From: Amycolatopsis marina
Lineage (GTDB): Bacteria > Actinomycetota > Actinomycetes > Mycobacteriales > Pseudonocardiaceae
Assembly (NCBI RefSeq): GCF_900111885.1
Contig: NZ_FOKG01000008.1
Location: 62,001-126,000 of the forward strand
Length of the DNA stretch: 64,000 nt
Direction: 5' to 3'
The notes beneath the pieces were generated by a model. That model was given only the letters and a program-made list of their open reading frames with translations, was not told the origin of the DNA and did not search any database. The position numbers were made by a program, and so were the translations under genes. Positions 2 through 17,891 of this stretch are shown here, piece after piece. Position 1 is the first letter of the stretch, and each line of letters opens with the position of its first letter.

Positions 2-1567
2 ATCGGCATCGTCGACCGGCCCTACGAGCAGCGCCGGGATCCACTGTGGGCCGACTTCTCCGGCGCAGCCGGACACGGTGTGCTCGTCGGCGGGCCGCAG
101 TCGGGCAAGTCGACCATGCTGCGAACGCTGATCATGTCGATGGCGCTGACACACACGCCGGAGGAGGCGCAGTTCTACTGTGTCGACCTCGGTGGTGGCA
201 CCCTGGCCGGGCTCGAGGACCTCCCGCACGTCGGTGGTGTGGCGGTCGCCCGCCGCGAGCCGGACAAGGCGCGCCGCATCGTCGCCGAGCTCACCACGCT
301 GGCCAACGAGCGGGAGTCCCGCTTCGGCGCGATGGGCATCGACTCGATGAACGAGTTCCGTAACCGCAAGCGCCGTGGGGAGATCTCCGCGGAACAGGAC
401 GGCTTCGGTGACGCGTTCCTCGTCGTCGACGGCTGGCGGGCGCTGCGCGACGACTTCGACGAGCTCGAGCCGCAGATCACGAAGCTGGCCGTGCAGGGCC
501 TGACCTACGGGGTGCACGTCATCATCGCGTCCAACCGGTGGGCCGACATCCGCCCGGCGATCAAGGACATGCTCGGCACCCGGTTCGAACTGCGCCTCGG
601 TGACCCGAGCGAGTCCGACATCGACCGGCGTGTCGCGGTGAACGTGCCCGCGGGGCGGCCTGGTCGCGGTCTGACCCGGGACAAACTGCACATGCTCACC
701 GGACTGCCGAGGATCGACGGTTCCAGCGACGCCGAGGATGTCGGCGCCGGGGTGGCCGACGCGGTGGCGAAGATCAAGGCGGCGTGGAAGGGCAGGCATG
801 CCCCGCAGGTGCGACTGCTGCCCGAGCTCATGCCCTACGAGGAGTTGCTGGCCGAGGACAAGCACCGCAACAGCAAGCTCGTGCCGATCGGTGTCAACGA
901 GGACGAACTCGCGCCCGTCTATCTGGACTTCGATGCCGAGCCGCACTTCATGGCGTTCGCGGACGGCGAGTCCGGCAAGACGAACCTGCTGCGGCAGATC
1001 GCGCGTGGGATCACCGACCGGTACACCAAGCAGGAAGCGGTCATCATCCTGGTCGATTACCGGCGCACCATGCTCGGTTACGTCGACGGTGACCAGTTGC
1101 TGGGCTACGCGGTGTCGGCGAACCAGCTGACCGAGATGATGAAGGACGTCGCCGGGTCGATGTCCAAACGGCTGCCCGGACCGGACGTCACCCAGGAGCA
1201 GCTCAAGACCCGGTCGTGGTGGACTGGGCCGGAACTGTTCCTGATGGTCGACGACTACGACCTCGTGGTGACGCAGACGAACAACCCGCTCAAGCCGCTC
1301 TCGGAGTACCTGGCTCAGGCCAAGGACGTCGGTCTGCACATGATCGTGGCGCGCCGTACCGGCGGTGCCTCGCGTGCGTCGTTCGACCCGATCGTCGGCA
1401 AGCTGAAGGAAATCGCGGCTCCCGGCCTCATCATGAACGGTTCCCGGGACGAAGGTGCGCTGCTGGGCAACGTCAAGCCCGGTCCGATGCCACCGGGACG
1501 AGGGACGTTCGTCAGCCGCAAGGTTGGCAAGCAGCTCATGCAGGTCTCCTGGATCAACCCCGAATAA
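2..1567 (+). CDS. eccC: EccC-type ESX ATPase (FtsK/SpoIIIE), C-terminal part, 5' end outside window
   Basis: Motor ATPase of a type VII (ESX) secretion system; EccC proteins sit at the inner membrane and bind the C-terminal signals of WXG100 substrates. The reading frame is open from base 2, so the N-terminal membrane part and first ATPase domain lie outside the window. Two FtsK-like domains are visible. The first has Walker A GGPQSGKS and Walker B-like LVVDG. The second has ADGESGKT and LMVDD. The downstream genes (Hsp70-like Rv3446c family, two WXG100 genes, rplM) match the mycobacterial ESX-4 order, so this is most likely EccC4. A 19-bp-arm palindrome follows the stop codon. The family call is secure; the ESX-4 class rests on context. 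Confidence 0.93.
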   Translation: MGIVDRPYEQRRDPLWADFSGAAGHGVLVGGPQSGKSTMLRTLIMSMALTHTPEEAQFYCVDLGGGTLAGLEDLPHVGGVAVARREPDKARRIVAELTTLANERESRFGAMGIDSMNEFRNRKRRGEISAEQDGFGDAFLVVDGWRALRDDFDELEPQITKLAVQGLTYGVHVIIASNRWADIRPAIKDMLGTRFELRLGDPSESDIDRRVAVNVPAGRPGRGLTRDKLHMLTGLPRIDGSSDAEDVGAGVADAVAKIKAAWKGRHAPQVRLLPELMPYEELLAEDKHRNSKLVPIGVNEDELAPVYLDFDAEPHFMAFADGESGKTNLLRQIARGITDRYTKQEAVIILVDYRRTMLGYVDGDQLLGYAVSANQLTEMMKDVAGSMSKRLPGPDVTQEQLKTRSWWTGPELFLMVDDYDLVVTQTNNPLKPLSEYLAQAKDVGLHMIVARRTGGASRASFDPIVGKLKEIAAPGLIMNGSRDEGALLGNVKPGPMPPGRGTFVSRKVGKQLMQVSWINPE

Positions 1568-1745: not shown

Positions 1746-3671
1746 GTGACGTTGCGGGTGGCGGTGGACTTCGGGACATCGAGCACCTGTGTCGTCGCGT
1801 CGGTGAACGGTCGCGAACCCCAGGTCGTCGTGGTGGATGGCCAACCGCTGCTGTCCTCGGCCGTGTACGCCGCTCCTGACGGGACGCTGTTCGTCGGCCA
1901 GGAGGCCGAGCGGCAGGCCGCGGTCGACCCGTCTCGTTACGAACCGCACCCCAAACGACGGATCGACGAGGGGGAACTGCTGCTCGGTGCCACTGTGCTG
2001 CCGGTGCTGGACGTCGTGCACGCCGTTCTCCGGCGCGCGGTCACCGAAGCACGCAGGCTTGCCGGCGGAGCAGAGGTCGACCTCCTGGTCCTGACCCATC
2101 CCGCACAGTGGGGGGCGATGCGCACCCGCCTGCTGCGCCAGGCGGCGGGCAGGTTGGCACACGAGGTGGCGCTCGTGCCCGAACCCGTCGCCGCCGCGGT
2201 CTTCCACGCCGCGACGCACGCTCCGACCGACCTCGGCCAGGACCGCACCGTTGAGTTCAGCGGGCACGTGGGCGACACCATCGCCGTGCTCGACGTCGGC
2301 GGCGGCACGGTCGACGCCAGCGTCGTGCGCAGGATGCCGGCCTCCGGCCCCGGGCCTCGCCGTGGCGGATTCCAGGTGCTGGCCACTCGCGGTGATCCAA
2401 CCTTCGGTGGCGCCGACGTGGACCAGGCGTTGCTCGAGCACGTCGGCTCCCTGGTGTCGTCGGCCGACCCCCAGGCATGGCGACAGCTTGTCGAAGGCAG
2501 GGAGCTGACCGATCGCCGCCGGCGTCGTGTGCTGCGCCAGGACATTCGCGGTGCGAAGGAGACACTGTCCAGGCACGCCTACACCGATGTGCCGATGCCG
2601 CCGCCCTTCGCCGACGCGCACGTCACGAGGGAAGACCTGGAGCGGCTGGTCGCGGCCCCGCTGGGCCGTGCCGTCGACCTCACCACGACCACGATCGAGG
2701 CCGCCAAGATGCGAGCGAAGCAACTCACCGCGATCTTCCTGGTCGGTGGCTCCAGCAGGATTCCGATGGTCTCCCGCCTGGTGCACGAAAGGACGGGTGT
2801 GGTGCCGACCACCCTCGACCAGCCGGAGACCGTGGTTGCCCGCGGCGCACTCCGGGCCGTGCTGATCGATCCCGATCGCACCGGTGCGCTGCCCGGCGCA
2901 TCCGCGGTCCGCCCGGGGACGGCCCGTCAGTCCGGCGAGCAGCGCACCGAGATCGTCGGACCCAGGGAGATACCCCGGTCGGCGTACCGGCCGCAGCAGG
3001 CCCGGCGGGGGAGCAACCCGCCACCGGCACCGGCACGGCCTCCTGCGGCGCGCGGTGCGACCACGTCGATGTCCGCGCCGCCTCCCGGGCAGCAACGGCC
3101 GCCTGCTCCGCCGCCAAAGCCCGCCACCGAGAACGGGGGTCTGCGCCGCCAGTTGCCCTGGCTGCTCGGGGCAGGTGTGGCGCTGGCCGCCGCAGTGGCG
3201 GCCGTGCTGGTCCTGACGCTGGACGACATACCGGACGGGCGCACGTTCGCGCAGTACAACTACAGCTTCGTCGCGCCCCCCGAGTGGACCCAGACCGGGG
3301 ACAACGTCGCCGATCGACAGGTGATCGTGAAGCCGACCGATGCCGTGGGCGCCGACGATCTGGTCGTGGTGCAGGAGTTCGAACTGCCCTACGACGGTGT
3401 CGCGGAACACGACCGCCTCGTACAGGAGTTGCGGACCCAGATCGACAGCAGCACGGGCAGCGAGTTCGCCGACTTCGCCCCGGGAACCGAGTTCGCCGGT
3501 AAGGACACCGTGTTCTATCGGGAGTTGAAGTCCGGGGCCACCGTCGACTGGTATGTGGTCACCCAGGCGAACACGCAGGTCAGCGTGGGGTGCCAGTATG
3601 TGGCAAACCGTGACCGGGTAGCGGGAGCGTGCGAGCAGATCGTGCGGACACTGGAGATCAGGGCGGAATGA
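1746..3671 (+). CDS. Membrane-anchored Hsp70-like type VII secretion-associated protein (Rv3446c family)
   Basis: GTG start; 641 aa. Residues 1 to about 375 form an actin/Hsp70-type nucleotide-binding domain: DFGTSST near the N-terminus, DVGGGTVD near residue 182 and GGSSRIP near 334. The Hsp70 substrate-binding domain is absent. A Pro-rich linker is followed by one membrane helix (about 467-489) and an extracytoplasmic domain of about 150 aa that resembles the Rv3446c-family C-terminal domain found in ESX-4 loci. The predicted topology is a cytoplasmic ATPase linked to an outer sensor or scaffold domain. It sits between eccC and the WXG100 genes, which supports a role in ESX-4 assembly or regulation; no biochemical role can be read from the sequence. 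Confidence 0.85.
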   Translation: MTLRVAVDFGTSSTCVVASVNGREPQVVVVDGQPLLSSAVYAAPDGTLFVGQEAERQAAVDPSRYEPHPKRRIDEGELLLGATVLPVLDVVHAVLRRAVTEARRLAGGAEVDLLVLTHPAQWGAMRTRLLRQAAGRLAHEVALVPEPVAAAVFHAATHAPTDLGQDRTVEFSGHVGDTIAVLDVGGGTVDASVVRRMPASGPGPRRGGFQVLATRGDPTFGGADVDQALLEHVGSLVSSADPQAWRQLVEGRELTDRRRRRVLRQDIRGAKETLSRHAYTDVPMPPPFADAHVTREDLERLVAAPLGRAVDLTTTTIEAAKMRAKQLTAIFLVGGSSRIPMVSRLVHERTGVVPTTLDQPETVVARGALRAVLIDPDRTGALPGASAVRPGTARQSGEQRTEIVGPREIPRSAYRPQQARRGSNPPPAPARPPAARGATTSMSAPPPGQQRPPAPPPKPATENGGLRRQLPWLLGAGVALAAAVAAVLVLTLDDIPDGRTFAQYNYSFVAPPEWTQTGDNVADRQVIVKPTDAVGADDLVVVQEFELPYDGVAEHDRLVQELRTQIDSSTGSEFADFAPGTEFAGKDTVFYRELKSGATVDWYVVTQANTQVSVGCQYVANRDRVAGACEQIVRTLEIRAE

Positions 3672-4240: not shown

Positions 4241-4555
4241 ATGAGCGGTTTTAAGGGCGAGATCGCCCAGTTCACGCAGGCCGAGAAGGACGTTGTCGAC
4301 ACCAAGAACGCGATGGTGCAGAACCTGAACACTCTGCGCGACAACATCGAGGCGACGCAGGCCGGCTGGTCCGGTCGTGCGGCTGAGGCGTTCAACAACG
4401 TGATGATGCGGTTCGACGAGAACTCGCGAAAGATGTACGAGTCGCTCGAGGGCATCGGCACCCTGCTTGAGCAGGCCGGTAGCAAGTACGAGGCCGCGGA
4501 AGAGGCACAGCTCGAAGCCGTGCAGAGCGCCTCGCGGGGCATGGAAGGCCTCTGA
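4241..4555 (+). CDS. WXG100 protein, EsxU-like
   Basis: 104 aa, the usual WXG100 length: a helical hairpin with the W-x-G turn at residues 43-45 (WSG) and a C-terminal YxxxE secretion signal (YEAAE, 83-87). The start is supported by an AAGGGGG ribosome site about 10 bases upstream. It is the first of a two-gene WXG100 pair after the Hsp70-like gene, the position of esxU in M. tuberculosis. The 216 bases upstream (4025-4240) hold no gene and no motif I can defend, so the pair may have its own promoter. Likely forms a heterodimer with the next gene product and is exported by the EccC-driven ESX-4 apparatus. Confidence 0.92.
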   Translation: MSGFKGEIAQFTQAEKDVVDTKNAMVQNLNTLRDNIEATQAGWSGRAAEAFNNVMMRFDENSRKMYESLEGIGTLLEQAGSKYEAAEEAQLEAVQSASRGMEGL

Positions 4556-4618
4556 GCCAGCTTCGGCTTTCGCGATTGTCCGCAAAACCACTGACTTTCA
4601 GAATCATAGGAGGGTGAA

Positions 4619-4906
4619 ATGCCGAACGGCATTGTCGTTGATTACCAGACCATCAACACCGCGGCTGAGGACTGCAACAAGACCGGTGGTGAGCTCGGTT
4701 CGCTGTTCGAGGACCTCAAGTCCAAGCTGAACCCGCTGATCAACACCTGGGAAGGTGAGGCGCAGGCCTCCTACCTCGAGCTGCAGACCAAGTGGGACCA
4801 GTCCTTCGAGGACATGAAGCAGCTGCTCGCGCAGATCGCCGCGGTGCTGCCGCAGATCGCCGACGGTTACCAGGGCACGGAAAAGGGCGTCACAGGAATG
4901 TTCTGA
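4619..4906 (+). CDS. WXG100 protein, EsxT-like
   Basis: 95 aa with WEG at residues 44-46 and YQGTE at 84-88. It has a good ribosome site (AGGAGGG, 6-7 bases upstream) and lies 63 bases after its partner. Position (second gene of the pair, before rplM) matches esxT. Both partners carry a YxxxE motif, whereas in many characterised pairs only one does. Most likely the heterodimer partner of the 4241 product; individual symbols are assigned by gene order, not by alignment. Confidence 0.92.
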   Translation: MPNGIVVDYQTINTAAEDCNKTGGELGSLFEDLKSKLNPLINTWEGEAQASYLELQTKWDQSFEDMKQLLAQIAAVLPQIADGYQGTEKGVTGMF

Positions 4907-4981: not shown

Positions 4982-5476
4982 CTATTTCGGTGCGCCGACC
5001 TCGAACTCGGGCTTCTCGTTCAGCACTCTGATGGACACCGACTTCGACTCTCCGGAGACCTCGACAGTGCACTCGAAGGTCGTTCCATTGCGGACCGGCT
5101 GGTCGTCCGGACACACGGGATTGCTGACGTCGTGCTCGCCGTAGCTGTCCCGCAGCACGGTCGCGACCCCATGCTGCAGGGACTCCTGATCCAGCACGTC
5201 ACCCCGGAACGCGCCCAGCAGCCAGGCGGTCACCCCGCTTGCGCCGAGGACGAAAGTGATCGCGCCGGCGACAAGAAGCGTTTTGCGCTTGCCGCGCTTC
5301 GGCGCCTGCTCTGGCGAGGGGGTGCCGAACGCACCCAAGCCACCGTACTGAGACTGGAACGACCCACCGTAGTTGGGCGCAGGTCCCTGTGGCTGGTGTG
5401 GGGCGGGTCGCGGGGGTCCCTGGTCCACACCAGGCGGCCGCCACCAGCCCGGTGGCCCGCCGGGTGGTTGAGTCAT
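4982..5476 (-). CDS. Single-pass membrane protein with DUF4333 domain
   Basis: 164 aa. The N-terminal 60 residues are Pro/Gly-rich and cytoplasmic, then a basic KRGKRK stretch, one membrane helix (about 67-88) and a C-terminal extracytoplasmic domain with the DUF4333 pattern of two cysteines (VCPDDQPV and FECTVE) and a short beta-rich end. Such proteins are common in mycobacteria and Pseudonocardiaceae; function unknown. It lies downstream of the lipoprotein gene on the same strand, 45 bases away, so the two are probably co-transcribed, and both face away from rplM. Confidence 0.8.
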   Translation of the reverse strand: MTQPPGGPPGWWRPPGVDQGPPRPAPHQPQGPAPNYGGSFQSQYGGLGAFGTPSPEQAPKRGKRKTLLVAGAITFVLGASGVTAWLLGAFRGDVLDQESLQHGVATVLRDSYGEHDVSNPVCPDDQPVRNGTTFECTVEVSGESKSVSIRVLNEKPEFEVGAPK

Positions 5477-5521
5477 CGCTTCACCTCACGCACGTGTCGT
5501 ACGTCCGGGCGGCAGGTCCGT

Positions 5522-6436
5522 TCAGCCATCATTCTGGATCTTCCCGAGTCTGTCGTAGAAGTCACTGACCGCCGCGCGATCCTTCAGCACGGTGACCTCG
5601 TCGTCGTCCGGTACGGGCGGCAGGTCGTTCTCGGTCGGCGGCTCGAGGACCTGGTAGGCCATCCGCACCTCCAGCTCGTGGCCGTCGCCGGTGACGGTGC
5701 CGTTCATCTCGATCCGCTGGAGCTTGTCATCCGGGCCGAGCACGATGAGCGCCGTCAGGGGCTCCGACCTCATCTGCTCGCTCACGTTGGCGAGCAGTTT
5801 TTCGGGGACGCCGATGACCTCGTACTCGAGAAAGGTCCGCAGCGGGATCTCCGCGGTCAACTCGACGCTGCCGTCGGGCAGGCTCTTGGCCTCTTTGGCC
5901 GCGCGGCCGGCCTCGACCGCAGCCGCGACGCTGTTCAGCATCTTGCAGACCTTGTTGTACCCCGCCCAGAAACACTCGCCGTAGTTGTGGCCCGTGTACG
6001 GCATGGACACCCATGGCGTCGGAGCGAGACTGGAGTAGTGCGGCCCGAGGCGTAGGTACTCCACCTCACTCCCGGCCGGGTGATAGGAGTCGAGGAACGT
6101 GCCGGAGTCCCGGTTGGAGTGGTTTTTCGACAGGCGGGCAGGCGGGCTGCCGAATTGCACGGCCGTGATGGTGTCGTCGGCCTTCTTGTCGTCGATCCTG
6201 ATGAAGGAGTCGAGTGTGCTCTTGCGCGGTTCGTTGCCGGTGAAGTCCTCGCTGAGGTGCTGCAGCTTGTCGGCGAACTTCGCACTGACGTACTCCGCGG
6301 CCTCGGCGCCGTCGGGAACAGGGGTCGCGGTGTGGGCCGTGCCGCAGGCCGAGGTCACCAACGCGACACCGGTCGCCAGCGCCGCCAGCGCCCTCGCTCG
6401 ACGACGGCCGGACCTCGCGTCAGGTCGGTTGGTCAC
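5522..6436 (-). CDS. Predicted lipoprotein of unknown function
   Basis: 304 aa. Arg-rich N-terminus, hydrophobic segment (about 15-27), then TSAC with a possible lipid-anchored cysteine near residue 31; the lipobox is not ideal (T at -3). The mature part has no family I recognise. It is mixed alpha/beta with two cysteines in the middle (GECFWAGYNKVC). Divergent from rplM with about 180 bases between. The two-gene minus-strand unit interrupts the esxT-rplM order known from M. tuberculosis and may be an insertion. Confidence 0.75.
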   Translation of the reverse strand: MTNRPDARSGRRRARALAALATGVALVTSACGTAHTATPVPDGAEAAEYVSAKFADKLQHLSEDFTGNEPRKSTLDSFIRIDDKKADDTITAVQFGSPPARLSKNHSNRDSGTFLDSYHPAGSEVEYLRLGPHYSSLAPTPWVSMPYTGHNYGECFWAGYNKVCKMLNSVAAAVEAGRAAKEAKSLPDGSVELTAEIPLRTFLEYEVIGVPEKLLANVSEQMRSEPLTALIVLGPDDKLQRIEMNGTVTGDGHELEVRMAYQVLEPPTENDLPPVPDDDEVTVLKDRAAVSDFYDRLGKIQNDG

Positions 6437-9218: not shown

Positions 9219-9270
9219 GACACCGTTTCGTCCGCTTCTCCCGAACCGCCTGCGCCCGTTTCCGCCGCTC

Positions 9271-9284
9271 GGTACATTCTGTGT
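9271..9284 (+). promoter_or_regulatory. Candidate promoter shared with the second cassette
   Basis: GGTACATTCTGTGTGC lies 44-57 bases before the EspC-like gene at 9328. A near copy (GGTACATTTCGTGTGC) begins at 14446 before the second EspC-like gene. TACATT fits an actinobacterial -10 box. No convincing -35 was seen at either site. Confidence 0.45.
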
Positions 9285-9327
9285 GCGCGCATCAGCGCAG
9301 CGTCAGCGACGGTAGTGGAGGGGAGCC

Positions 9328-9633
9328 ATGGCGGGCGGCCATTCAGTGGAGACCGATGGGCTGGCACTCGCGGCCGGCGCTTTGAACGACGTGCCCCGGC
9401 GGGCACTCGAAACGCCGCTGCGCGCGGTCAAGGACGTCCAGATCGGTCCGGCGGACTTCGGGCGGGCCCACGGTGAGTGCTCCAGGCCCTACACCGAAGG
9501 GGTGATGAAGCTGGCTGCCTGTGCCGAGACGTACCTGGCCGCGGCTGAAGAGTTCGGCAACCGGTTCGACAGCGCCGGTGCGCAGTATGTGGCGAACGAG
9601 GATCAGGCCGCCGGCGAGATGGGGAGGTACTGA
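9328..9633 (+). CDS. EspC-like ESX secretion-associated small protein (cassette A)
   Basis: 101 aa, helical hairpin type resembling the DUF2580/EspC family of ESX substrates. Conserved landmarks: ADFGRAHGECSRPY at mid-protein and a C-terminal YxxxE signal (YVANE, 87-91). Ribosome site GGAGGGG just upstream. One-base overlap (TGATG) with the following large gene, so the two are co-translated. M. tuberculosis has a similar small gene (Rv3440c) at this place after glmM. It is a paralogue of the 14546 product. Likely the secretion-signal-carrying partner of the large protein, by analogy with EspC or PE/PPE pairs; this is inference. Confidence 0.8.
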   Translation: MAGGHSVETDGLALAAGALNDVPRRALETPLRAVKDVQIGPADFGRAHGECSRPYTEGVMKLAACAETYLAAAEEFGNRFDSAGAQYVANEDQAAGEMGRY

Positions 9634-11930
9634 TGAGTCTCGCCGCGGTGGGAGACGGCGCGGCGGACATCCCGAGTCGTCAGGAAGTGGAACAACTTCT
9701 GGACGACCCGAATCCACGAGGAGAGATCCAACGTGGTTTCGCCCTGCGCTACCTCGACTATGTCGAGGAGGACCCGACAGCGTACGGATTCCGCGACGAG
9801 GCGGATTTCCACGCGTTCAAAGAGAAGTACAAGGAACGGCTCTCCATCAGTGACGGGGATCTGTTTCGTTCCTTGGCCGGTGCCGAGGACGACGTTCAGT
9901 ACTACTACACGAAGGCCAAGGAAGATCACGACAAAATCCGCGCCGATGCCAGGCAGGGTGATCGGGACGCCGTCAATGGTGGCGCGAGCGCATTGGAAGC
10001 GATCCGGGGCAGAAGTTCCGAGGCTAATCCCGGTGCCGCCAACTCGAACGAGATACTCGATGCCGGGCTGTCCGGGCTGAGGGCCTTCGACGTATGGCTG
10101 CCGCTGTACAACCGGTCGTTGGCGATCATCGGTGGCGGTGCCGCCGTTCCGCTCGAAGAGATCTACCGGCTCTACGACGAGCAGCGCGACATTCCGTTCG
10201 ACAAGTTCGATGCCGGAGCCGGGGAGCTGGCGACGTTGCGTGATGCGATCGACGGCTCGTCGGCAGAGGTGGAAGGAAAGCTCCAGAGCGCCTTTTCCAC
10301 GTGGGAGGGTGCTGCCGCCGATCAAGCACGCGAGTATCAGCGGGGCTTCACGGAGAAGACCTCGGTGGTTGCCGATGCCATCGGCACATCAGCCGAAGGC
10401 CTACGACACACACTCGGCTCTGTGGGGAAGTTCTGTCAGGAGAAGGCGGACTGGGTTCTCACCTACTACTTCGATTCCTTCGGTGACATCACCGCGCAGG
10501 ACATGGAACGTCTTGTTCGAGTCGCCGAGGGGCACGGTAGCCAGAACGACATCATTCACTGCATCGGATTTCTGGGGATCGAGGCGAAGAACCGGTTCAA
10601 TGACGACTGGGGCGGCCTTGATCAGGAGACAGTGGATTTCATTGTCGAGCAAGCAGGAGTCTGGCTCAGGGATGTTTTCTGCACGTGGTTCGGGGAACAT
10701 CTCAACAACTACCGGATGATGTGCGAGAACATCAGGGTGGCGGTCGACGGCGCGTGGAGCGCCTTTCCGGAAATGCTCGCCCGAATTCCGGAGAACCCTT
10801 ACGCCGAACTCGGCACCATCGTTGCTGCCAAGCAGTCGCCGCCCGCGGGACCGCCTGCGCCCGGTGGCCCGGTCGCCGGGCAGACCGTCGGAGCGGGTGG
10901 CGGTGCGGTGTCCCCGCCCGGTACGGGTGGAGCGGGTTCCGACGTGCCGGCCCCGGCTGTTCCCGCACCGGCCGTGCCCACCGCGGTCACGGAGCCCGCC
11001 GCGAACGTGCCCACTTCGGACACCGTGCCTCAGGCCACTCCCTCCGTAGTGCCCGAGCCGGAATCGAAGGACTTGCCGAGCGAACCAGGGGTCCTGACCA
11101 TCTCGCACGGGGACTACGAGATTTCGCTGAGCATGCCGACTGACGACGGCACGATGGAAATCACGCTGGATGACGGTTCCGGCGCGCCCCAGGACTATGT
11201 TCTCGATTTCGCCGCGCAGAGTCCGGATCTTGCTGCCGAGCCTGAAGGCAGGGAAGCGTTCGGTCCTGCCGGCACCCCGCACGAGGACGACCGGCACCGC
11301 CCGAATGCCGACGGAAGGATCCAGGTCGAGGACGGTGGTCTTCGGGTCGTTGCCGAGCAGCCGGACGGGCCGGACGGCGACACCGTGGTGACCGTTGATG
11401 ACGGCAGGGGCGAGCCCACGACGTACACACTGGGCGCCGAAGCAAGGCCGCAAACGGTTGAGCACGCGGGCGCTGGGGATCCGGCTGAACCCGCACCGAC
11501 CGGTGCGGCTCGGGCTGCCGAGCAGGTGACCAGCCCCCAATCGGTGTCCGGGCAGAGCGGAGTGGCAGCGGGTGCGGCGGTCGGAGACATCAGCCGTGGC
11601 GCGATGGCGGGTGATCCGGAGCCCGGCGTCCCGGTGTCCGGAGCCGACGTCGGTGGGTCGCCACGTCAGCCGGCACCGGGCGCGGGGCTTGGATCCGCGC
11701 CCGGTGGTGCCGCCCCTGCAGGGGGTGACCAGAGCACCTCAGCATCCACCGGCATGGGCATGATGGGTGGTGCAGGCGGCGCGGCCGGAGGTTCCGGGGG
11801 TGACCAGGAGCGAGGTGCGGGCGCCTACCGGGTCGCCGGAGACATTTTCGATACCGGAGGCTTCGGCGACCGCATCAGCGGAACGCTGGGCGTCGAAGAA
11901 GACCATGACCGGTCAGCGGACGAGCGATAG
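9633..11930 (+). CDS. Large WXG-type candidate ESX substrate (cassette A)
   Basis: 765 aa. N-terminal about 400 residues are predicted helical, with a W-E-G turn at 224-226 inside a WXG100-like segment. Then a Pro/Ala/Val-rich linker (about 405-485), two copies of a roughly 45-residue beta-type repeat (487-526 and 555-604) ending VDDG-x-GEP-x-x-Y-x-L or similar, and a Gly/Ala-rich tail. The extreme C-terminus has a signature shared with the 14866 protein: GDQERG, then YR, IF-D/E-T and RISG-S/T-L. No signal peptide or membrane helix seen. Co-translated with the EspC-like gene. Positionally matches Rv3439c (alanine/proline-rich). Likely exported by ESX-4; function unknown. Confidence 0.75.
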   Translation: MSLAAVGDGAADIPSRQEVEQLLDDPNPRGEIQRGFALRYLDYVEEDPTAYGFRDEADFHAFKEKYKERLSISDGDLFRSLAGAEDDVQYYYTKAKEDHDKIRADARQGDRDAVNGGASALEAIRGRSSEANPGAANSNEILDAGLSGLRAFDVWLPLYNRSLAIIGGGAAVPLEEIYRLYDEQRDIPFDKFDAGAGELATLRDAIDGSSAEVEGKLQSAFSTWEGAAADQAREYQRGFTEKTSVVADAIGTSAEGLRHTLGSVGKFCQEKADWVLTYYFDSFGDITAQDMERLVRVAEGHGSQNDIIHCIGFLGIEAKNRFNDDWGGLDQETVDFIVEQAGVWLRDVFCTWFGEHLNNYRMMCENIRVAVDGAWSAFPEMLARIPENPYAELGTIVAAKQSPPAGPPAPGGPVAGQTVGAGGGAVSPPGTGGAGSDVPAPAVPAPAVPTAVTEPAANVPTSDTVPQATPSVVPEPESKDLPSEPGVLTISHGDYEISLSMPTDDGTMEITLDDGSGAPQDYVLDFAAQSPDLAAEPEGREAFGPAGTPHEDDRHRPNADGRIQVEDGGLRVVAEQPDGPDGDTVVTVDDGRGEPTTYTLGAEARPQTVEHAGAGDPAEPAPTGAARAAEQVTSPQSVSGQSGVAAGAAVGDISRGAMAGDPEPGVPVSGADVGGSPRQPAPGAGLGSAPGGAAPAGGDQSTSASTGMGMMGGAGGAAGGSGGDQERGAGAYRVAGDIFDTGGFGDRISGTLGVEEDHDRSADER

Positions 11931-11954
11931 CTGACACCGGCCGAAGGAAAGCAC

Positions 11955-12410
11955 ATGGACTCCACGGAGAACTTGCAGCAGCTGCGCAGCAGACTCGGCT
12001 CGATCGGCCGGGAGAACAGCGAGCGGCTCGCACTCATCGAGCAGCGAGCGGCCAAGGCCGCCAAGGAGAGCAAGGACACCACCCAGCGACTCGCGACGGA
12101 CACCGACGAGGTCCTTGCCCGCCTGAGCGAACGTGCTCAGCGCGTCAAGAACGCGGGCGGCTGGGCTACCGAAGGCAGTGTCGCCAAGTCGACCGTTGAG
12201 GAGAACGACTTCGGCTTCGACGAGGACGACCAGGCGCGGGAGCCGCAGCCGGACGCCGCTCCCGCAACTCGTCCGCTGCCACCTGTGCCGCCCACTCCGC
12301 CGGTGGTGGCCCCGCCGATGGCGCCCGCGAGAGCAGCCAGTGTCAGGCACGTGCGCAGAGCACCCGTCGAGGAGGAGGACTATGCCCAGACCGACTGGAC
12401 CGCTGACTGA
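11955..12410 (+). CDS. Small coiled-coil protein with acidic tail (cassette A)
   Basis: 151 aa. Residues 1 to about 65 are charged heptad-like helix, then AGGWATE, an FGFDEDD segment, a Pro-rich linker and an acidic aromatic tail (EEEDYAQTDW). Shares AGGWATE, the FGxxxD segment and the tail type with the 17373 product, and occupies the same third position in its cassette. No known domain. Twenty-four bases after the large gene, presumably in one operon. A cytosolic chaperone or EccC adaptor is possible but unproven. Confidence 0.7.
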   Translation: MDSTENLQQLRSRLGSIGRENSERLALIEQRAAKAAKESKDTTQRLATDTDEVLARLSERAQRVKNAGGWATEGSVAKSTVEENDFGFDEDDQAREPQPDAAPATRPLPPVPPTPPVVAPPMAPARAASVRHVRRAPVEEEDYAQTDWTAD

Positions 12411-12412
12411 GC

Positions 12413-14131
12413 GTGGCTGAGACCGCTATGGGCGATCGGCCCGCTCTCGACATCCCCCGGCGCGCACTGACCGCGTACCTGCCCGACCGCGCGGAGCGGG
12501 ACGAGCCCGCGTTCACCTGGACCGATCGTGCCGGTGCCGAGCACACCCTGAACTGGACGGCCCTGCTCGCGCGAGTGCAGGCGCTCGCCGCCAGGTTGCG
12601 GTCCGTCGCGACTCCCGGTGACCGGGTCGCCGTGCTCACCCGTCAGGACCTGGACTACGTCGTGGGCTTCCTCGGCGTGCTGTACGCGGGTCTGGTCGCG
12701 GTGCCGTTGTTCGCCCCCGAGACCCGGGCGCACCGGCCACGGTTGACCGCCGCCCTGCGGGACAGCGCGCCCTCGGTGTGGCTGACCTCTGTCCGTGGCG
12801 AAGACCGGCTGCGTGAGTTGGTTGAGAACGAGGCACTGCCCGCTCCCGCGTACGTGATCGCGGTGAACGAGGTACGGGATGGTCCCGGCGGGCCCCCGGC
12901 CGACGTCGGCCTGGGTGACGCGGCCTATCTGCAGTACACCTCGGGCTCCACCCGCGATCCGGCTGGAGCGGTGATCACCCACCGAGCCCTGACTGCCAGC
13001 GTCTGTCAGGTCGCCGCGGCCTACGACGTGCATCGGGGCACGACCTGCGCGGGCTGGATCCCCTTCTCCCATGACATGGGCCTGATCCAGCTGCTCTGTG
13101 TGCCGGTGTTCACCGGAGCACGGTCGGTCTTCATGGAGCCGCTGGAGTTCATCCGCAGGCCACGGCGGTGGTTGGAGCAGTTGTCCGGCTACCCGGACGT
13201 CTTCACCGCGGCCCCCAACTTCGCTTACGACCTCGCCGTGGACGCCGTCCCCGCGCCCGCGCGGGCCGGTCTGAATCTCTCCGCAGTCCGGGTCGCGCTC
13301 AATGGGAGCGAGCCGGTGCGGCCGGCCACGATCGATGCGTTCGCCGACGCCTTCGGGCCGTGCGGATTCGCGCCCGTGGCGCACCGCCCTTCCTACGGGC
13401 TCGCAGAGGCCACGGTCTATGTCTCCAGCGCGGGCCCGGAGGGACCGATCGTCACGGAGTTCGACCGAGTCGCGCTCGCACGTGGCAGGGCCGAACCGCC
13501 CGCGACGAAGCAGGACGCGCGCGGTCTCGTGTCCGTGGGCCGCCCGGTCGGGCAGCTGGTGCGGATCGTGGACCCCGACGCGTGCCGGCTGCGTCCCGAC
13601 GGCCAGGAGGGCGAGGTCTGGGTGCACGGCCCCCATCTCGCCGAGGGCTACTGGCGCAAGCCGGAGAGCACGGCGACGACGTTTAGCGGGCTAATTGCAG
13701 ATCCCGCGCCCGGGGTGCCACGGGACGGGTGGCTGCGCACCGGAGACCTCGGCCTGGTTCATGAGGGGCAGCTTTACATCACGGGTCGGCTCAAGGACGT
13801 CATCGTCATCGACGGACACAACCACTATCCGCAGGACATCGAGGACACCGTCGCCGGTGCCGATGCGGCGATCCGCCGGGACCGGATCGCGGCGTTCGCC
13901 GTGGACGGCGCGGGTGGTGAGGGGGTGATGGTGGTCGCCGAGCACGTCCGTGACGCCGACCTCACCGAACTGGATCGCCCGCGCATCGCGACGGCCGTCC
14001 GGAGGGCGGTCGCCGAGCACCACGACCTGGCCCTGCGCGCGTTCGAGCTGGTCGGCCCCGGAAATGTGCCGCGGACGTCCAGCGGGAAGGTCGCGAGGTT
14101 AGCGGCCCGGCAGCGTTACGGGCCGCGGTGA
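12413..14131 (+). CDS. Fatty acyl-AMP ligase (FAAL-type FadD)
   Basis: 572 aa, GTG start two bases after the previous stop. Activates a fatty acid as acyl-AMP and usually passes it to an acyl carrier protein. Visible motifs: P-loop YTSGSTRDPAGAV, the FAAL hallmark WIPFSHDMGL, SYGLAEATVYV, GWLRTGDLG and the C-terminal catalytic lysine in TSSGKVAR. No ketosynthase or other PKS domain lies nearby; the next gene is an ACP. One dispersed palindrome is translated here as FSGLIA (residues 424-429), just before the core 8 loop, a place where FAALs normally have a TFGA-type segment. Sits between two ESX-substrate cassettes, so it may acylate an ESX or envelope partner (inference). Confidence 0.88.
   Translation: MAETAMGDRPALDIPRRALTAYLPDRAERDEPAFTWTDRAGAEHTLNWTALLARVQALAARLRSVATPGDRVAVLTRQDLDYVVGFLGVLYAGLVAVPLFAPETRAHRPRLTAALRDSAPSVWLTSVRGEDRLRELVENEALPAPAYVIAVNEVRDGPGGPPADVGLGDAAYLQYTSGSTRDPAGAVITHRALTASVCQVAAAYDVHRGTTCAGWIPFSHDMGLIQLLCVPVFTGARSVFMEPLEFIRRPRRWLEQLSGYPDVFTAAPNFAYDLAVDAVPAPARAGLNLSAVRVALNGSEPVRPATIDAFADAFGPCGFAPVAHRPSYGLAEATVYVSSAGPEGPIVTEFDRVALARGRAEPPATKQDARGLVSVGRPVGQLVRIVDPDACRLRPDGQEGEVWVHGPHLAEGYWRKPESTATTFSGLIADPAPGVPRDGWLRTGDLGLVHEGQLYITGRLKDVIVIDGHNHYPQDIEDTVAGADAAIRRDRIAAFAVDGAGGEGVMVVAEHVRDADLTELDRPRIATAVRRAVAEHHDLALRAFELVGPGNVPRTSSGKVARLAARQRYGPR
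13676..13701. repeat. Dispersed palindrome, copy 4, inside a coding region
   Basis: Core TTAGCGGGCTAA within the FAAL gene. The element carries stops in two of three frames on each strand; here it is read in the single open frame as F-S-G-L. The outer arms are the least symmetric of all copies, as if adapted to coding. Confidence 0.85.
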
Positions 14132-14159
14132 GGCCGCGAATCCCGGAGATAATGGCCGC

Positions 14160-14441
14160 ATGGGCAACGACGAGGCTTCGGGGCAGGCAGCGCACATCGG
14201 CGATATCCGGAAGATCGTCTGTGACTCACTGCTGCTGGACCCCGCGGCGATCGATGACACGACACCGCTGGCCGACGTCGGGGTGGACTCGAAGCGGCGG
14301 GTGCAACTGCTCGCCACGCTGGAGATCCACTACGAGGTGACCATCGACCTCGACGAGCGCGACCGGATGACGACGGTGGCCGGTATCGCGGAGGTCCTCG
14401 AGGAGGCCCTTCGGGGCAAATCGGCCATCTCCGAGGGGTGA
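14160..14441 (+). CDS. Stand-alone acyl carrier protein
   Basis: 93 aa with an acidic helical ACP fold. The phosphopantetheine serine is in GVDSKRR (Ser44), preceded by LLLDPAAIDDTTPLADV, typical of PKS/NRPS-type ACPs rather than AcpP (which has DSLD). Twenty-eight bases after the FAAL gene, so it is the probable acceptor of the acyl group. No thioesterase or synthase is adjacent, leaving the final acceptor unknown. Confidence 0.88.
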   Translation: MGNDEASGQAAHIGDIRKIVCDSLLLDPAAIDDTTPLADVGVDSKRRVQLLATLEIHYEVTIDLDERDRMTTVAGIAEVLEEALRGKSAISEG

Positions 14442-14445
14442 CCAC

Positions 14446-14461
14446 GGTACATTTCGTGTGC
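14446..14461 (+). promoter_or_regulatory. Candidate promoter, second copy
   Basis: GGTACATTTCGTGTGC matches the element at 9271 in 14 of 16 positions and lies about 85-100 bases before the EspC-like gene of cassette B. Confidence 0.45.
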
Positions 14462-14545
14462 ATCTGCGACGGCACCGAATCGGGCTGTGGTGCGTCGTAG
14501 GTCCGGACACGCACCCGGAAGACCTCAGAACAGGGGGAGCGCGCG

Positions 14546-14866
14546 GTGGGCGCACAGGGCGAGGGTTACAAGACAGACGCCGACGCTATGGCGGCCGCGT
14601 CGAAGCGGATCGCGGAGTTGGCTGAGGATCTTCCGGACGACAACAAGGATCTCGGCGACACCAAGGTGAACGCGGCGGGCTTCGGTGAGGCGCACGGCGA
14701 GCACGCCACCAGCTACACCACCGGAGTGAGCACCCTCGACGCCGCGGTGAAGGGCCTCGGTACCACCCTCAACGGTTTCGCGGGGCGAATCGGTGGCGCG
14801 GGCACCGCCTACACCGCCGGTGACGACGCGCGGACCGGCGACATGAACGCTGCGGGGAGGCAGTAA
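14546..14866 (+). CDS. EspC-like ESX secretion-associated small protein (cassette B)
   Basis: 106 aa; GTG start with AGGGGGAG upstream. Paralogue of the 9328 product: same length, a central AGFGEAHGEHATSY segment matching ADFGRAHGECSRPY, and a C-terminal YTAGD (89-93), the YxxxD form of the type VII signal. The stop overlaps the next start (TAATG). Predicted to pair with or escort the 14866 protein through ESX-4. Confidence 0.8.
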   Translation: MGAQGEGYKTDADAMAAASKRIAELAEDLPDDNKDLGDTKVNAAGFGEAHGEHATSYTTGVSTLDAAVKGLGTTLNGFAGRIGGAGTAYTAGDDARTGDMNAAGRQ

Positions 14867-17340
14867 TGGCCAAGTCGTGGGAGGAAGTCAAGACCGTCCT
14901 CGACGATCCGGGAGTCTCGCCGGAGACCAAGCAGATGCTGCTGTCCTCGTGGCTGAACACGCCCGAGGGTTGGCAGGCGGACCGCGATGAGGTCGATGAG
15001 TACTCGGAGGCCTACAACGCCTATCCGTTCGGCTTCGGCCCCGGCAACGTGGACGAGATCTACGACAGCGCGCAGCAGGAGGCGGAGCAGGCCAGCTACA
15101 ACGATCGTGAGCAGGGCGAAGCCGTCGACCAGGGCAAACAGGACCTGGAGGATGCGCGGCCACCCGCGGCCGGTGGCGTGGGGACCAAGACCTCCGACGA
15201 GCTGCTTGACACCGCGGTGGCGGCGCTGAAGGTTTTCGAGAACTTCGGCCCACTGCTGGCGGAACTGCCGGGCGACTGTGTCGGGCAAACCAGGCCACTC
15301 GATTTCAACACCGACATCAAGAAGCGCTTCGACGAACAGCGCGGCATCAGCTTCGAGAACTTCCTGACCGACGCCGAGCGGTTCAGCACCGGGGCGACAA
15401 CGGTCGACACGACCATGCGGGATACCCAGGGGCAGCTGAGCTCCCTGTTCCAGAACTGGACCGGTGACGCGGCGGACGCGGCGCACGATCACTACACCGA
15501 GAAGATCGCGCCGAAGGCACAGGAACTCAGCCGGGACCTCACCGATGCCGCGGAAGCGGTCGAACTCGCCGTGGACACCGTGTACCAGCTCGTGAAGGGC
15601 AAGGCCGACGCCGTCAACGAGCTCTACACCGATCAGGTGGGCAAGGCCGACCTGGCGATGGCCAAGAAGGTCATCAACATCGCCAACGGTTCCGCTGCTG
15701 GCATGGACGAACTCAACGACGTCGCGGGCTGGATGGACGTCAACTTCGGCACCAACCTGCGCGAGACCCTCAACGACGACGGGTGCTGCGACGACGACGA
15801 GATCAAGGAAGAGGGGATCCGGCTCGCCAAGCAGTGGATCCAGAACCAGTTCAACCCGGACATGTGGGACTGGCTGTACCTGTCCTTTGACAAGACCTGC
15901 ACCGACAGTCTCGAGCTGGTGAACCAGGCGTACGAAGCGCTGGACGAGGTCATGGGCGATCTGGAGAACGAGTTCCAGGGTGCGTCCGACCAGCCGCCGC
16001 CCGGCGAGAAGGAGGAGCGTGGGGGCGGTGGTGACACCGGCGGTGGCGGTGGTACCGGTGGCGGCGGCACCGGAGGTGGCACTGGGGGTGGCACCGGCGG
16101 AGGTACCGGTGGCGGTGGTACAGGCGGCGGGGGTGACGTTCCGACCACCGAGCAGCCCGGCACGAATCCGGTCACCGGAAAGCCGCTGGAGGTCGATCCC
16201 GAAACCGGCAAGCCCTACCCGATCGACCCGGAGACAGGTGAGGCGATCAAGGACGCGGGTGACGACCGGGACACCCTCACCGTTGAGCAGGGTGACAAGA
16301 CAATCTCGATGAACGAGCCCGACGCCGAGGGCGAGATGGAGATCTCCGTCGACGACGGGACCGGCGAGCCGAAGGAATACAAGCTGGACTTCAGTGCCGA
16401 GGAGGAAGGCGCCGAAGGCGAGCAGTCCGGTGAGTTCGGGCCGGAGGGCAGCAAGGACGGCGCGGAGCAGATCTACCGGCCCGGTCCCGACGGGAAGATC
16501 CACATCGAGGACGGGAACCTCAAGATCACTGCCGAGCAGCCGGAAGGCCCGGACGGCCCGACGGTCGTCACCGTCGACGACGGCAGCGGGGAGCCGACGA
16601 CGTACACCCTCGGCGAGGAGAAGGCCGAGGACAGCGCTGCGCGCGCCGGTGAACCTCGTCCGGGCGGTCCGCGAGGCGATGCCGTGGCCGGCGGGGCGGG
16701 CGACTCCGGTACCGGGGACTCCTCCGGCAGTGCGGAAGGCAGCGAGGACATCCGCACGATGCCTGCTCCAGCCGAAGGTCCGGAATCTGTCTCCGACGAG
16801 GCAGATGTGGCAGAGGACGGCGCTGTCGAGGGCGGAGCGGGCGGTGGCGGCGGCGATGGTGCCGCAGGTGGTGGCTCGGGGCCCGGTGGAGACGATGCGA
16901 GCAGTGAAGGCACGGCCGGTGACGGTGGTGGACCGACCGAGCCACAGTCCGTCGGCGCAGGGGCGAGCGGTGGCGTCGCGGCCGGAGTGGACGCAGGAGG
17001 CGTGTCGTCCGGGATCGGCGGTGCCGGTGAAGCGGTCATGGACGGCGGGGTGCAGACCTCGGCCAGCGCCCCGGCTGCGGCCGGGCTCGGGACGGCACCG
17101 GGCGGCGTCGCGGAACCGGTCGCGGCCGGTGCGGCGCAGGGTGCATCCGGTGGAATGGGCGGCGGCATGGGCATGATGGGCGGTGGCGCGGCCGGCGGTG
17201 GCGGTGGCGGCGGTGACCAGGAACGAGGCTCCAGCCAGTACCGGCTGGACGGTGGAATCTTCGAGACCAGCGCAAGCACCAACCGGATCAGCGGTTCGCT
17301 GGACGACGAGGGCGACCGTTCGATCAGCTACGAGCGATGA
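14866..17340 (+). CDS. Large WXG-type candidate ESX substrate (cassette B)
   Basis: 824 aa. Same plan as the 9633 protein: helical N-terminal region with a W-T-G turn at 198-200, a DGCCDDDE acidic cysteine pair near 306, a pure Gly/Thr linker (about 386-424, many GGGTGGG units), two beta-type repeats (about 466-509 and 536-585) each containing VDDG-T/S-GEP and an aromatic-x-Leu end, a long Gly/Ala/Asp tail, and the shared terminal GDQERG / YR / IFET / RISGSL signature. No signal peptide or membrane helix. Divergence from cassette A is large in the linkers and small in the repeats and terminus, pointing to those as the functional parts. Probably an exported surface or envelope protein. Confidence 0.75.
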   Translation: MAKSWEEVKTVLDDPGVSPETKQMLLSSWLNTPEGWQADRDEVDEYSEAYNAYPFGFGPGNVDEIYDSAQQEAEQASYNDREQGEAVDQGKQDLEDARPPAAGGVGTKTSDELLDTAVAALKVFENFGPLLAELPGDCVGQTRPLDFNTDIKKRFDEQRGISFENFLTDAERFSTGATTVDTTMRDTQGQLSSLFQNWTGDAADAAHDHYTEKIAPKAQELSRDLTDAAEAVELAVDTVYQLVKGKADAVNELYTDQVGKADLAMAKKVINIANGSAAGMDELNDVAGWMDVNFGTNLRETLNDDGCCDDDEIKEEGIRLAKQWIQNQFNPDMWDWLYLSFDKTCTDSLELVNQAYEALDEVMGDLENEFQGASDQPPPGEKEERGGGGDTGGGGGTGGGGTGGGTGGGTGGGTGGGGTGGGGDVPTTEQPGTNPVTGKPLEVDPETGKPYPIDPETGEAIKDAGDDRDTLTVEQGDKTISMNEPDAEGEMEISVDDGTGEPKEYKLDFSAEEEGAEGEQSGEFGPEGSKDGAEQIYRPGPDGKIHIEDGNLKITAEQPEGPDGPTVVTVDDGSGEPTTYTLGEEKAEDSAARAGEPRPGGPRGDAVAGGAGDSGTGDSSGSAEGSEDIRTMPAPAEGPESVSDEADVAEDGAVEGGAGGGGGDGAAGGGSGPGGDDASSEGTAGDGGGPTEPQSVGAGASGGVAAGVDAGGVSSGIGGAGEAVMDGGVQTSASAPAAAGLGTAPGGVAEPVAAGAAQGASGGMGGGMGMMGGGAAGGGGGGGDQERGSSQYRLDGGIFETSASTNRISGSLDDEGDRSISYER
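16021..16137 (+). repeat. Gly-rich low-complexity coding repeat
   Basis: In-frame GGTGGC/ACC-type units encode the poly-Gly/Thr linker of the large WXG protein. Prone to slippage; copy number may vary between strains. Confidence 0.8.
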
Positions 17341-17372
17341 CGGCGCGCAGGCGGCGGGGTTGAGGAGGACTC

Positions 17373-17891
17373 ATGGACATGTCGGGACGTGTCGAGCGCA
17401 TGCGGGCGACACTGGGGGCGCTCGTACGGGAACAGTCCGATCGGCGAGAGCTGCGTGACCGTCAGGGCCAGGAGTTGAAGGCCCGCTCCCAGGAGTACAT
17501 GACGAAGCAGGTCCAGGCGGCCGAGCGGTACGTCCAGCACCGGCGGGAACTGGGTAAGCGCAAGGAAGAGGCAGGTGGCTGGGCGACCGAGAAGACGTTG
17601 TCGGACAAGAGCAATGTGATGGGCTTCGGGCCGGAGGACCCGGAGGAGGCTCCCGCGGCCGGGTTCGCCCAGTACACGGCCCCCGTTCCGGTGGCACCCG
17701 CCGTGCCGACGCCAGAGCCGCCTCCGGCAGCGGGGGGCTGGCAGGAGCCTCCGTCACCACCCCCGGCTCCGGCCGCTCCGGCACCGGCGGTCGCGGAGGA
17801 ACCGAAGGCGCCGAAGCGGCCGGGCCGCCACGCGCGTCCGCAGGAATCCTTCGACGACGACGACTTCTCCAACAACAGCTGGATGAAGTAA
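17373..17891 (+). CDS. Small coiled-coil protein with acidic tail (cassette B)
   Basis: 172 aa; ribosome site GAGGAGG 8 bases before ATG. Long charged helix (1-65), AGGWATE, an FGPEDPEE segment, Pro-rich linker, basic KRPGRHARP and an acidic aromatic end (DDDDFSNNSW). Third gene of cassette B and paralogue of the 11955 protein. Function unknown; strict co-occurrence with the large WXG gene suggests it acts on that protein. Confidence 0.7.
   Translation: MDMSGRVERMRATLGALVREQSDRRELRDRQGQELKARSQEYMTKQVQAAERYVQHRRELGKRKEEAGGWATEKTLSDKSNVMGFGPEDPEEAPAAGFAQYTAPVPVAPAVPTPEPPPAAGGWQEPPSPPPAPAAPAPAVAEEPKAPKRPGRHARPQESFDDDDFSNNSWMK

Follow-up and report, generated by a model that had tools for sequence, protein, structure and literature searches.

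Why would genes for a fatty acyl-AMP ligase (FAAL) and a free-standing acyl carrier protein (ACP) lie among genes that resemble those of secreted proteins? The question is raised by a locus of Amycolatopsis marina, located in a stretch of 64,000 nucleotides (contig NZ_FOKG01000008.1, positions 62,001 to 126,000; referred to here as the window) that forms part of one contig in a 58-contig, 7.0 Mb genome. In that locus the interval between glmM and glmS, adjoining an ESX-4 type VII secretion system (T7SS), contains a cassette of two paralogous units, A and B, placed around the FAAL and ACP genes. Each unit encodes a small EspC-like protein, a large WXG protein (‘Big’) and a small coiled-coil protein (‘CC’) (Table 1). 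ESX-4 is the oldest ESX type, and to our knowledge its role and that of the large substrates encoded beside it are little understood.

The best explanation of the locus as a whole, which we hold with somewhat less than even confidence, is a T7SS substrate cassette that possesses its own supply of acyl-ACP.

Conservation of the FAAL-ACP pair with the cassette

An earlier note on this DNA had tied the FAAL-ACP pair to the cassette and had set linkage in other genomes as a test of that idea in advance. The link survived, including at a second kind of site where the stretch covered holds neither ESX-4 nor glmM/glmS. The pair accompanies unit B; unit A is a separate paralogue that is also found without FAAL-ACP.

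When the window ACP alone was searched against 150 genomes of the family (a sample of 46 genera), it matched at 1e-6 in 39 of them; among 29 of these loci that were read (L010–L038), 24 adjoin a Big or CC homologue (in two, L030 and L037, CC only in the stretch covered) and five do not. Profiles of the Big C-terminal domain and of the ACP, run on the same genomes, gave matches in 109 and 72, respectively. Of the best 57 ACP-profile matches, 37 are at most 4 kb from a Big gene (31 genomes), corresponding to 37 of the best 39, and 18 weaker matches are unlinked. The profile was built from linked ACPs and therefore favors this result; the ACP-only search is free of that bias.

A scan of the genome collection for the Big C-terminal domain yielded 77 distinct loci (from the best 80 of 114 matches) in Amycolatopsis, Prauserella, Qaidamihabitans, Saccharomonospora and one Actinomycetes metagenome-assembled genome; the fetched locus sets overlap, and ‘unique’ rows throughout are unique sequences rather than independent species. 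The complete series FAAL-ACP-EspC-Big-CC is present in 55 of the 77 loci, 28 with glmM/glmS and 27 without. Twenty-six of the latter are clearly elsewhere; the other, L120, is a short contig belonging to the glmM-glmS site, whose hydrolase it still contains. Nine loci have ACP and a ketosynthase (KS) in place of FAAL, mostly with a chain length factor (CLF). No ACP was present in the covered stretch of ten (L094, which has a CLF, L102 and L153 are cut by contig ends), and three hold an ACP in a locus that is cut or reduced (L100 and L117 stop short of CC; L096 lacks FAAL and KS). Among the 77 loci we found neither a FAAL without an ACP nor a FAAL together with a KS.

The five-gene series is thus a recurring unit. 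Its flanks at standalone sites differ when inspected by eye (L127 and L142, which have some genes in common, L131 and L149), and we consider functional coupling of the acyl module with the cassette highly probable. Three genes upstream of one standalone unit (L131:2753-5251) themselves resemble, by eye, another WXG-type cassette. The Big C-terminal repeat domain was found at E 1e-6 in 47 of 298 genomes of the order, all belonging to the window's own family, with no match at that threshold outside it; the closest named match to that domain of Big-B is in Amycolatopsis palatopharyngis DSM 44832 (88%).

Properties of the ligase and the carrier protein

The claim that a FAAL and a free-standing ACP lie between the two units, with no polyketide synthase (PKS) adjoining, was borne out by profile matches and by the genes beside FAAL. 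The FAAL protein matches the AMP-binding family with 202 bits and has FadD32, FadD23 and FadD28 among its best Protein Data Bank (PDB) matches. It scores below the NCBIfam subfamily cut-offs and is closer to FAALs than to CoA ligases (312 bits for FadD28 versus 76 for FadD13). Its YTSG, YGLAE and TGDLG motifs and Lys547 are kept in 62 of 62 sequences, with variation elsewhere (S167 is Ser in 49 and Thr in 13; K449 is kept in 61 of 62). The ACP matches PF00550 at 40.7 bits (cut-off 20.8) and its phosphopantetheine serine is kept in 81 of 81. Adenylation and loading of fatty acids is the known chemistry of the FAAL family, and the enzyme would accordingly be expected to adenylate a fatty acid and load the ACP.

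We rejected a role for this FAAL as a PKS component: no PKS adjoins it, and the two paralogues read in the same genome (L165 and L166) do adjoin a KS. One of these, L165 (C15:48849-50534), is 58% identical to the cassette FAAL and could be its source.

A ketosynthase pair in place of the ligase

In Prauserella, Qaidamihabitans, Amycolatopsis arida and several further genera the order is EspC-Big-CC-ACP-KS-CLF. Loci of this type are L084, L088, L091, L095, L098, L106, L138, L157 and L086 (its contig breaks off in KS), and further ones include L044, L045, L047, L050, L051, L053 and L058. Three genomes of a single genus (L063, L064 and L172) carry the ACP-KS-CLF trio in inverted orientation, between CC and EspC, and L067 retains weak CLF matches only, as after loss. 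The KS catalytic Cys-His-His is present in 20 of 21 sequences, the remaining row being partial, and the cassette KS rows group together (support 89/89). From what is known of the family, the KS-CLF pair in these genera would build a chain on the ACP.

The best PDB matches of the L051 KS and CLF are 6kxd chains A and B, and that of the window ACP is 6kxf chain C. PMC7949117 describes 6KXF as the ishigamide ACP-KS-CLF complex, and the cassette trio looks like the core of such a type II PKS.

In a tree of ACPs (85 columns, F-type thinned to 25 of 61, unrooted and drawn with a midpoint root) a branch with 100/98 support separates the FAAL-type ACPs from the KS-type cassette ACPs and the unlinked ACPs, which form two groups. 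All three kinds join at one node, and because the tree is unrooted it is compatible both with one ACP whose partners were swapped and with two recruitments. On either history, two acyl sources serve the same cassette. In Prauserella rugosa (L096/L177, one genome) the ACP is kept without FAAL, KS or CLF, and Big carries Arg at the position of Lys244, the residue considered below.

Properties and paralogy of the cassette proteins

The small proteins had been called EspC-like and the large ones WXG proteins. Both small partners carry an export-type YxxxE/D motif near the C-terminus (YVANE in EspC-A and YTAGD in EspC-B), the tyrosine of which is conserved at 1.00 in 82 units with a module, but neither matches the Pfam EspC model (PF10824) at E 0.1. 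The WXG assignment stood for Big-B, which scores 32.1 bits with the WXG100 profile (cut-off 27.3), and failed by profile for Big-A (22 bits); W198-x-G200 is invariant in 57 Big rows (alignment A5). Big-B also scores 14.2 bits with the EspC model, under its cut-off of 23.5, and no PPE (PF00823) match was listed for it.

Big-B comprises a helical WXG/PPE-like N-terminal domain (residues 1–370), a Gly-rich linker, two four-strand beta repeats (residues ∼466–591) and a conserved tail. The model of the N-terminal domain is helical and resembles the folds of EsxA/EsxEF and PPE41 according to a second structure aligner only, Foldseek having given no match at E 0.001; the C-terminal domain model gave no PDB match at E 0.001. 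Export of T7SS substrates depends on YxxxD/E, and EspC-B and Big-B would by analogy form a PE/PPE-like heterodimer that carries such a signal.

Each of the three genes of unit A has its homologue in unit B (Big, 29% identity, E 4e-52; CC, E 1e-9; EspC, E 6e-12), in line with the earlier description of them as duplicated. A Big tree, built from 100 of the 141 rows with the F-type reduced to 23 of 62, places Big-A and Big-B in different clades; they are therefore old paralogues, and a recent tandem duplication was rejected.

Module-specific residues and a proposed mechanism

Lys244 of Big is present in 82 of 82 units with a module and in 5 of 59 without (module class being set by distance rules), where Arg is commonest. 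It is the most module-specific among the 64 columns conserved at ≥95%. Two of three rows labelled ‘K0’ (W and L083) are A-units with FAAL-ACP alongside, and the 59 include them; cut contigs account for some of the ‘none’ rows (e.g. L102 and L153), leaving the module state of these undefined. The Big clade that contains all sampled module units also contains four Arg rows without a module of their own or without KS-CLF. His56 of CC follows Lys244 loosely, being present in 74 of 76 units with a module, none of 15 A-units and 5 of 15 other units (CC rows are missing for 32 of the 141 Big units). Both the lysine and the histidine are lost in L058-A and L092.

We propose the following mechanism. 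FAAL would adenylate a fatty acid and load it onto the ACP, and the acyl group would then pass, in the cytoplasm, from the ACP to Lys244 of Big-B, with CC-B (through His56) probably serving as transferase or docking factor. The lipidated EspC-B/Big-B dimer would be exported, most likely via the adjacent ESX-4, and lipidation could anchor Big in a membrane or let it interact with one. The acceptor, the transferase and the export route are those that we infer. Acylation of Big itself is conceivable and a little less secure than the general explanation offered at the outset; Lys244 as the site is doubtful. The full scheme appears unlikely: a T7SS substrate lipidated before export by an acyl-ACP module with swappable loaders (most Amycolatopsis have FAAL; Prauserella and others have KS-CLF), along a path from ACP to His56 to Lys244, forming a new class of acyl-ACP-dependent protein acylation in Gram-positives.

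Judged from position and fold, export of the cassette proteins by ESX-4 is likely. The genome contains three type VII systems (three EccC over cut-off and three EccD), which renders that route uncertain; the two additional loci, with EccC and EccD matches over cut-off, are at C13:89955-95377 and C31:4504-17070.

Alternative explanations

Two points weigh against protein acylation. Common descent confounds the Lys/His pattern, and no protein acyltransferase was recognised (the rest of the genome was not searched for one); the Pfam matches of five CC proteins scanned likewise included no HlyC-type acyltransferase family.

The alternative that survives best, which we regard as possible though clearly short of probable, is that the product of the module (FAAL-ACP, often with a P450-like enzyme, or an ACP-KS-CLF polyene core) is a modified fatty acid or small lipid. 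The exported Big/EspC pair would handle it as cargo, as ligand or as part of the envelope, and no protein would be covalently acylated. The lack of a recognised transferase and the matches to chains of the ishigamide complex are consistent with this. So is a P450-like gene that 33 of 71 sources with a FAAL carry in divergent orientation to it, in many Amycolatopsis loci (L043:11799-12776, with matches at 32 other loci and with spacing to FAAL from a 24-base overlap to an 86-base gap). The L043 and L087 proteins contain the heme-type motif FGLGRHxCPG (the one that was scanned scores 16 bits with Pfam P450, below cut-off), and such an enzyme may modify the ACP-bound chain. The gene is, however, absent from the window and from the standalone copies, which consist of five genes; a release enzyme, a condensing partner and an exporter were not seen to recur in the unit; and this explanation leaves the association of the lysine and histidine with the module unaccounted for.

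We consider it improbable that acyl- or holo-ACP instead docks onto Arg25/Arg28 of CC and Lys244/Lys246 of Big, as a chaperone or regulator that ties secretion to fatty-acid status. ACPs are acidic, and the two arginines follow the module (Arg25 0.99 and Arg28 0.92 with it; 0.07 each in A-units; 0.27 and 0.13 in ‘none’ units), yet an arginine at position 244 would preserve charge and occurs in none of the 82 module units. The existence of two different acyl-loading routes further argues that the acyl chain itself matters.

Chance arrival of the lipid genes in the glmM-glmS interval, taken as a hot spot for insertions, is very improbable: the interval is variable, as the loci without an ACP illustrate, and a transposase-like ORF (by eye) is inserted between glmM and the cassette at L047:13608-14882, but chance insertion is largely refuted by the standalone units (five genes, order unchanged, at other sites in 26 loci), by the retained residues and by the joining of two distinct acyl sources to one cassette.

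Organization of the locus

The order of genes in the window (with rplM, rpsI, glmM and glmS named by eye) is eccC, an Rv3446c-like Hsp70-domain protein, an EsxU/EsxT-like pair, two minus-strand genes, rplM, rpsI, glmM, the cassette, an alpha/beta hydrolase and glmS. The Rv3446c-like protein (positions 1746-3671) contains an HSP70-like ATPase domain (HSP70 101.6 bits; T7SS_Rv3446c 92.9 bits). The minus-strand genes (4982-6436), between the EsxT-like gene and rplM, encode a DUF4333 protein and a lipoprotein-like protein and recur in many relatives.

All eight cassette ORFs were found where the earlier note had placed them, with a G+C content at third codon positions of 0.73–0.88, and its one-base EspC/Big overlaps were confirmed in both units (at 9633 and 14866). 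The gap between CC-A and FAAL is two bases, so that unit A, FAAL and ACP are read as a single gene run. A separate copy of CGGTACATTNNGTGTGC lies upstream of unit B, and the like promoter motif reported for both units is indeed exact at 9270 and 14445. Its core, GGTACATTNNGTGTGC, matches exactly at just two places in the 7.0 Mb genome, both at this cassette, and at nine others with two mismatches; a reversed control pattern gave 12 sites at ≤2 mismatches. Exact copies of the core occur in 32 of 182 loci, a count that takes in the window's own loci and those that overlap, and those sites that were placed lie upstream of EspC.

Table 1. Positions of the cassette genes, upstream motifs and ESX-4 genes in the window
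Feature	Position	Strand	Description
EccC of ESX-4, 3' part	80..1567	+	gene begins before the window
EsxU/EsxT-like WXG100 pair	4241..4906 (4241-4555, 4619-4906)	+	
Motif CGGTACATTCTGTGTGC	9270..9286	+	upstream of EspC-A
Unit A	9328-12410	+	EspC-A, Big-A, CC-A
EspC-A	9328..9633	+	EspC-like small partner, unit A; YxxxE near C-terminus; no Pfam match at E 0.1
Big-A	9633..11930	+	large WXG protein of unit A, 765 aa; Gln at Lys244-equivalent position
CC-A	11955..12410	+	small coiled-coil/Pro-rich protein of unit A
FAAL	12413..14131	+	fatty acyl-AMP ligase with catalytic motifs
ACP	14160..14441	+	free-standing acyl carrier protein; phosphopantetheine Ser44 (GVDSK)
Motif CGGTACATTTCGTGTGC	14445..14461	+	upstream of EspC-B
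Unit B	14546-17891	+	EspC-B, Big-B, CC-B
EspC-B	14546..14866	+	EspC-like partner, unit B; YxxxD near C-terminus
Big-B	14866..17340	+	large protein of unit B; Lys244 in long helix following WXG turn
CC-B	17373..17891	+	coiled-coil protein of unit B; His56, GGWAT motif

Discussion

If the proposed mechanism is true, some T7SS substrates act as lipid-modified proteins; two enzyme sets are joined to homologous substrates, and one lysine and one histidine can be named as candidates, in actinomycetes that are not known as pathogens. At the level of titles and abstract openings, we found no description in the open PMC literature of an acyl module coupled to T7SS substrates.

FAAL-ACP starter modules of the FadD32 and FadD28 kind are found in PKS and nonribosomal peptide synthetase (NRPS) clusters. 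The cassette resembles them in having a FAAL with catalytic motifs adjoining an ACP, but its FAAL has no adjoining PKS or NRPS and is embedded among secretion substrates. Highly reducing type II PKS of the ishigamide type (Iga10/11 with CLF; 6KXF) are the best match for the window ACP and the L051 KS/CLF; unlike them, the window contains no KS/CLF, no ketoreductase or dehydratase was noticed beside the KS/CLF of relatives, and T7SS-type substrates adjoin.

In the acylation of RTX proteins, HlyC hands an acyl group from acyl-ACP via its own His23 to a lysine of HlyA (PMC8339906). The likeness is in proposed logic only, with an acyl-ACP donor, a histidine of a small helper and an internal lysine of a secreted protein. 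No sequence relation was found, and the cassette differs in having a dedicated ACP and acyl source and T7SS-type rather than type I export.

The PE/PPE and EspC/EspA pairs of ESX systems also combine a small YxxxD/E partner with a large, helical protein of the WXG/PPE-like kind next to an ESX locus, and one of the two structure aligners used likens the modelled N-terminal domain of Big to the PPE41 and EsxEF folds. Unlike those pairs, the cassette lacks a Pfam PPE match and an EspC match over cut-off, and it adds a beta-repeat domain with a tail, a third, coiled-coil gene and a linked ACP with FAAL or KS-CLF.

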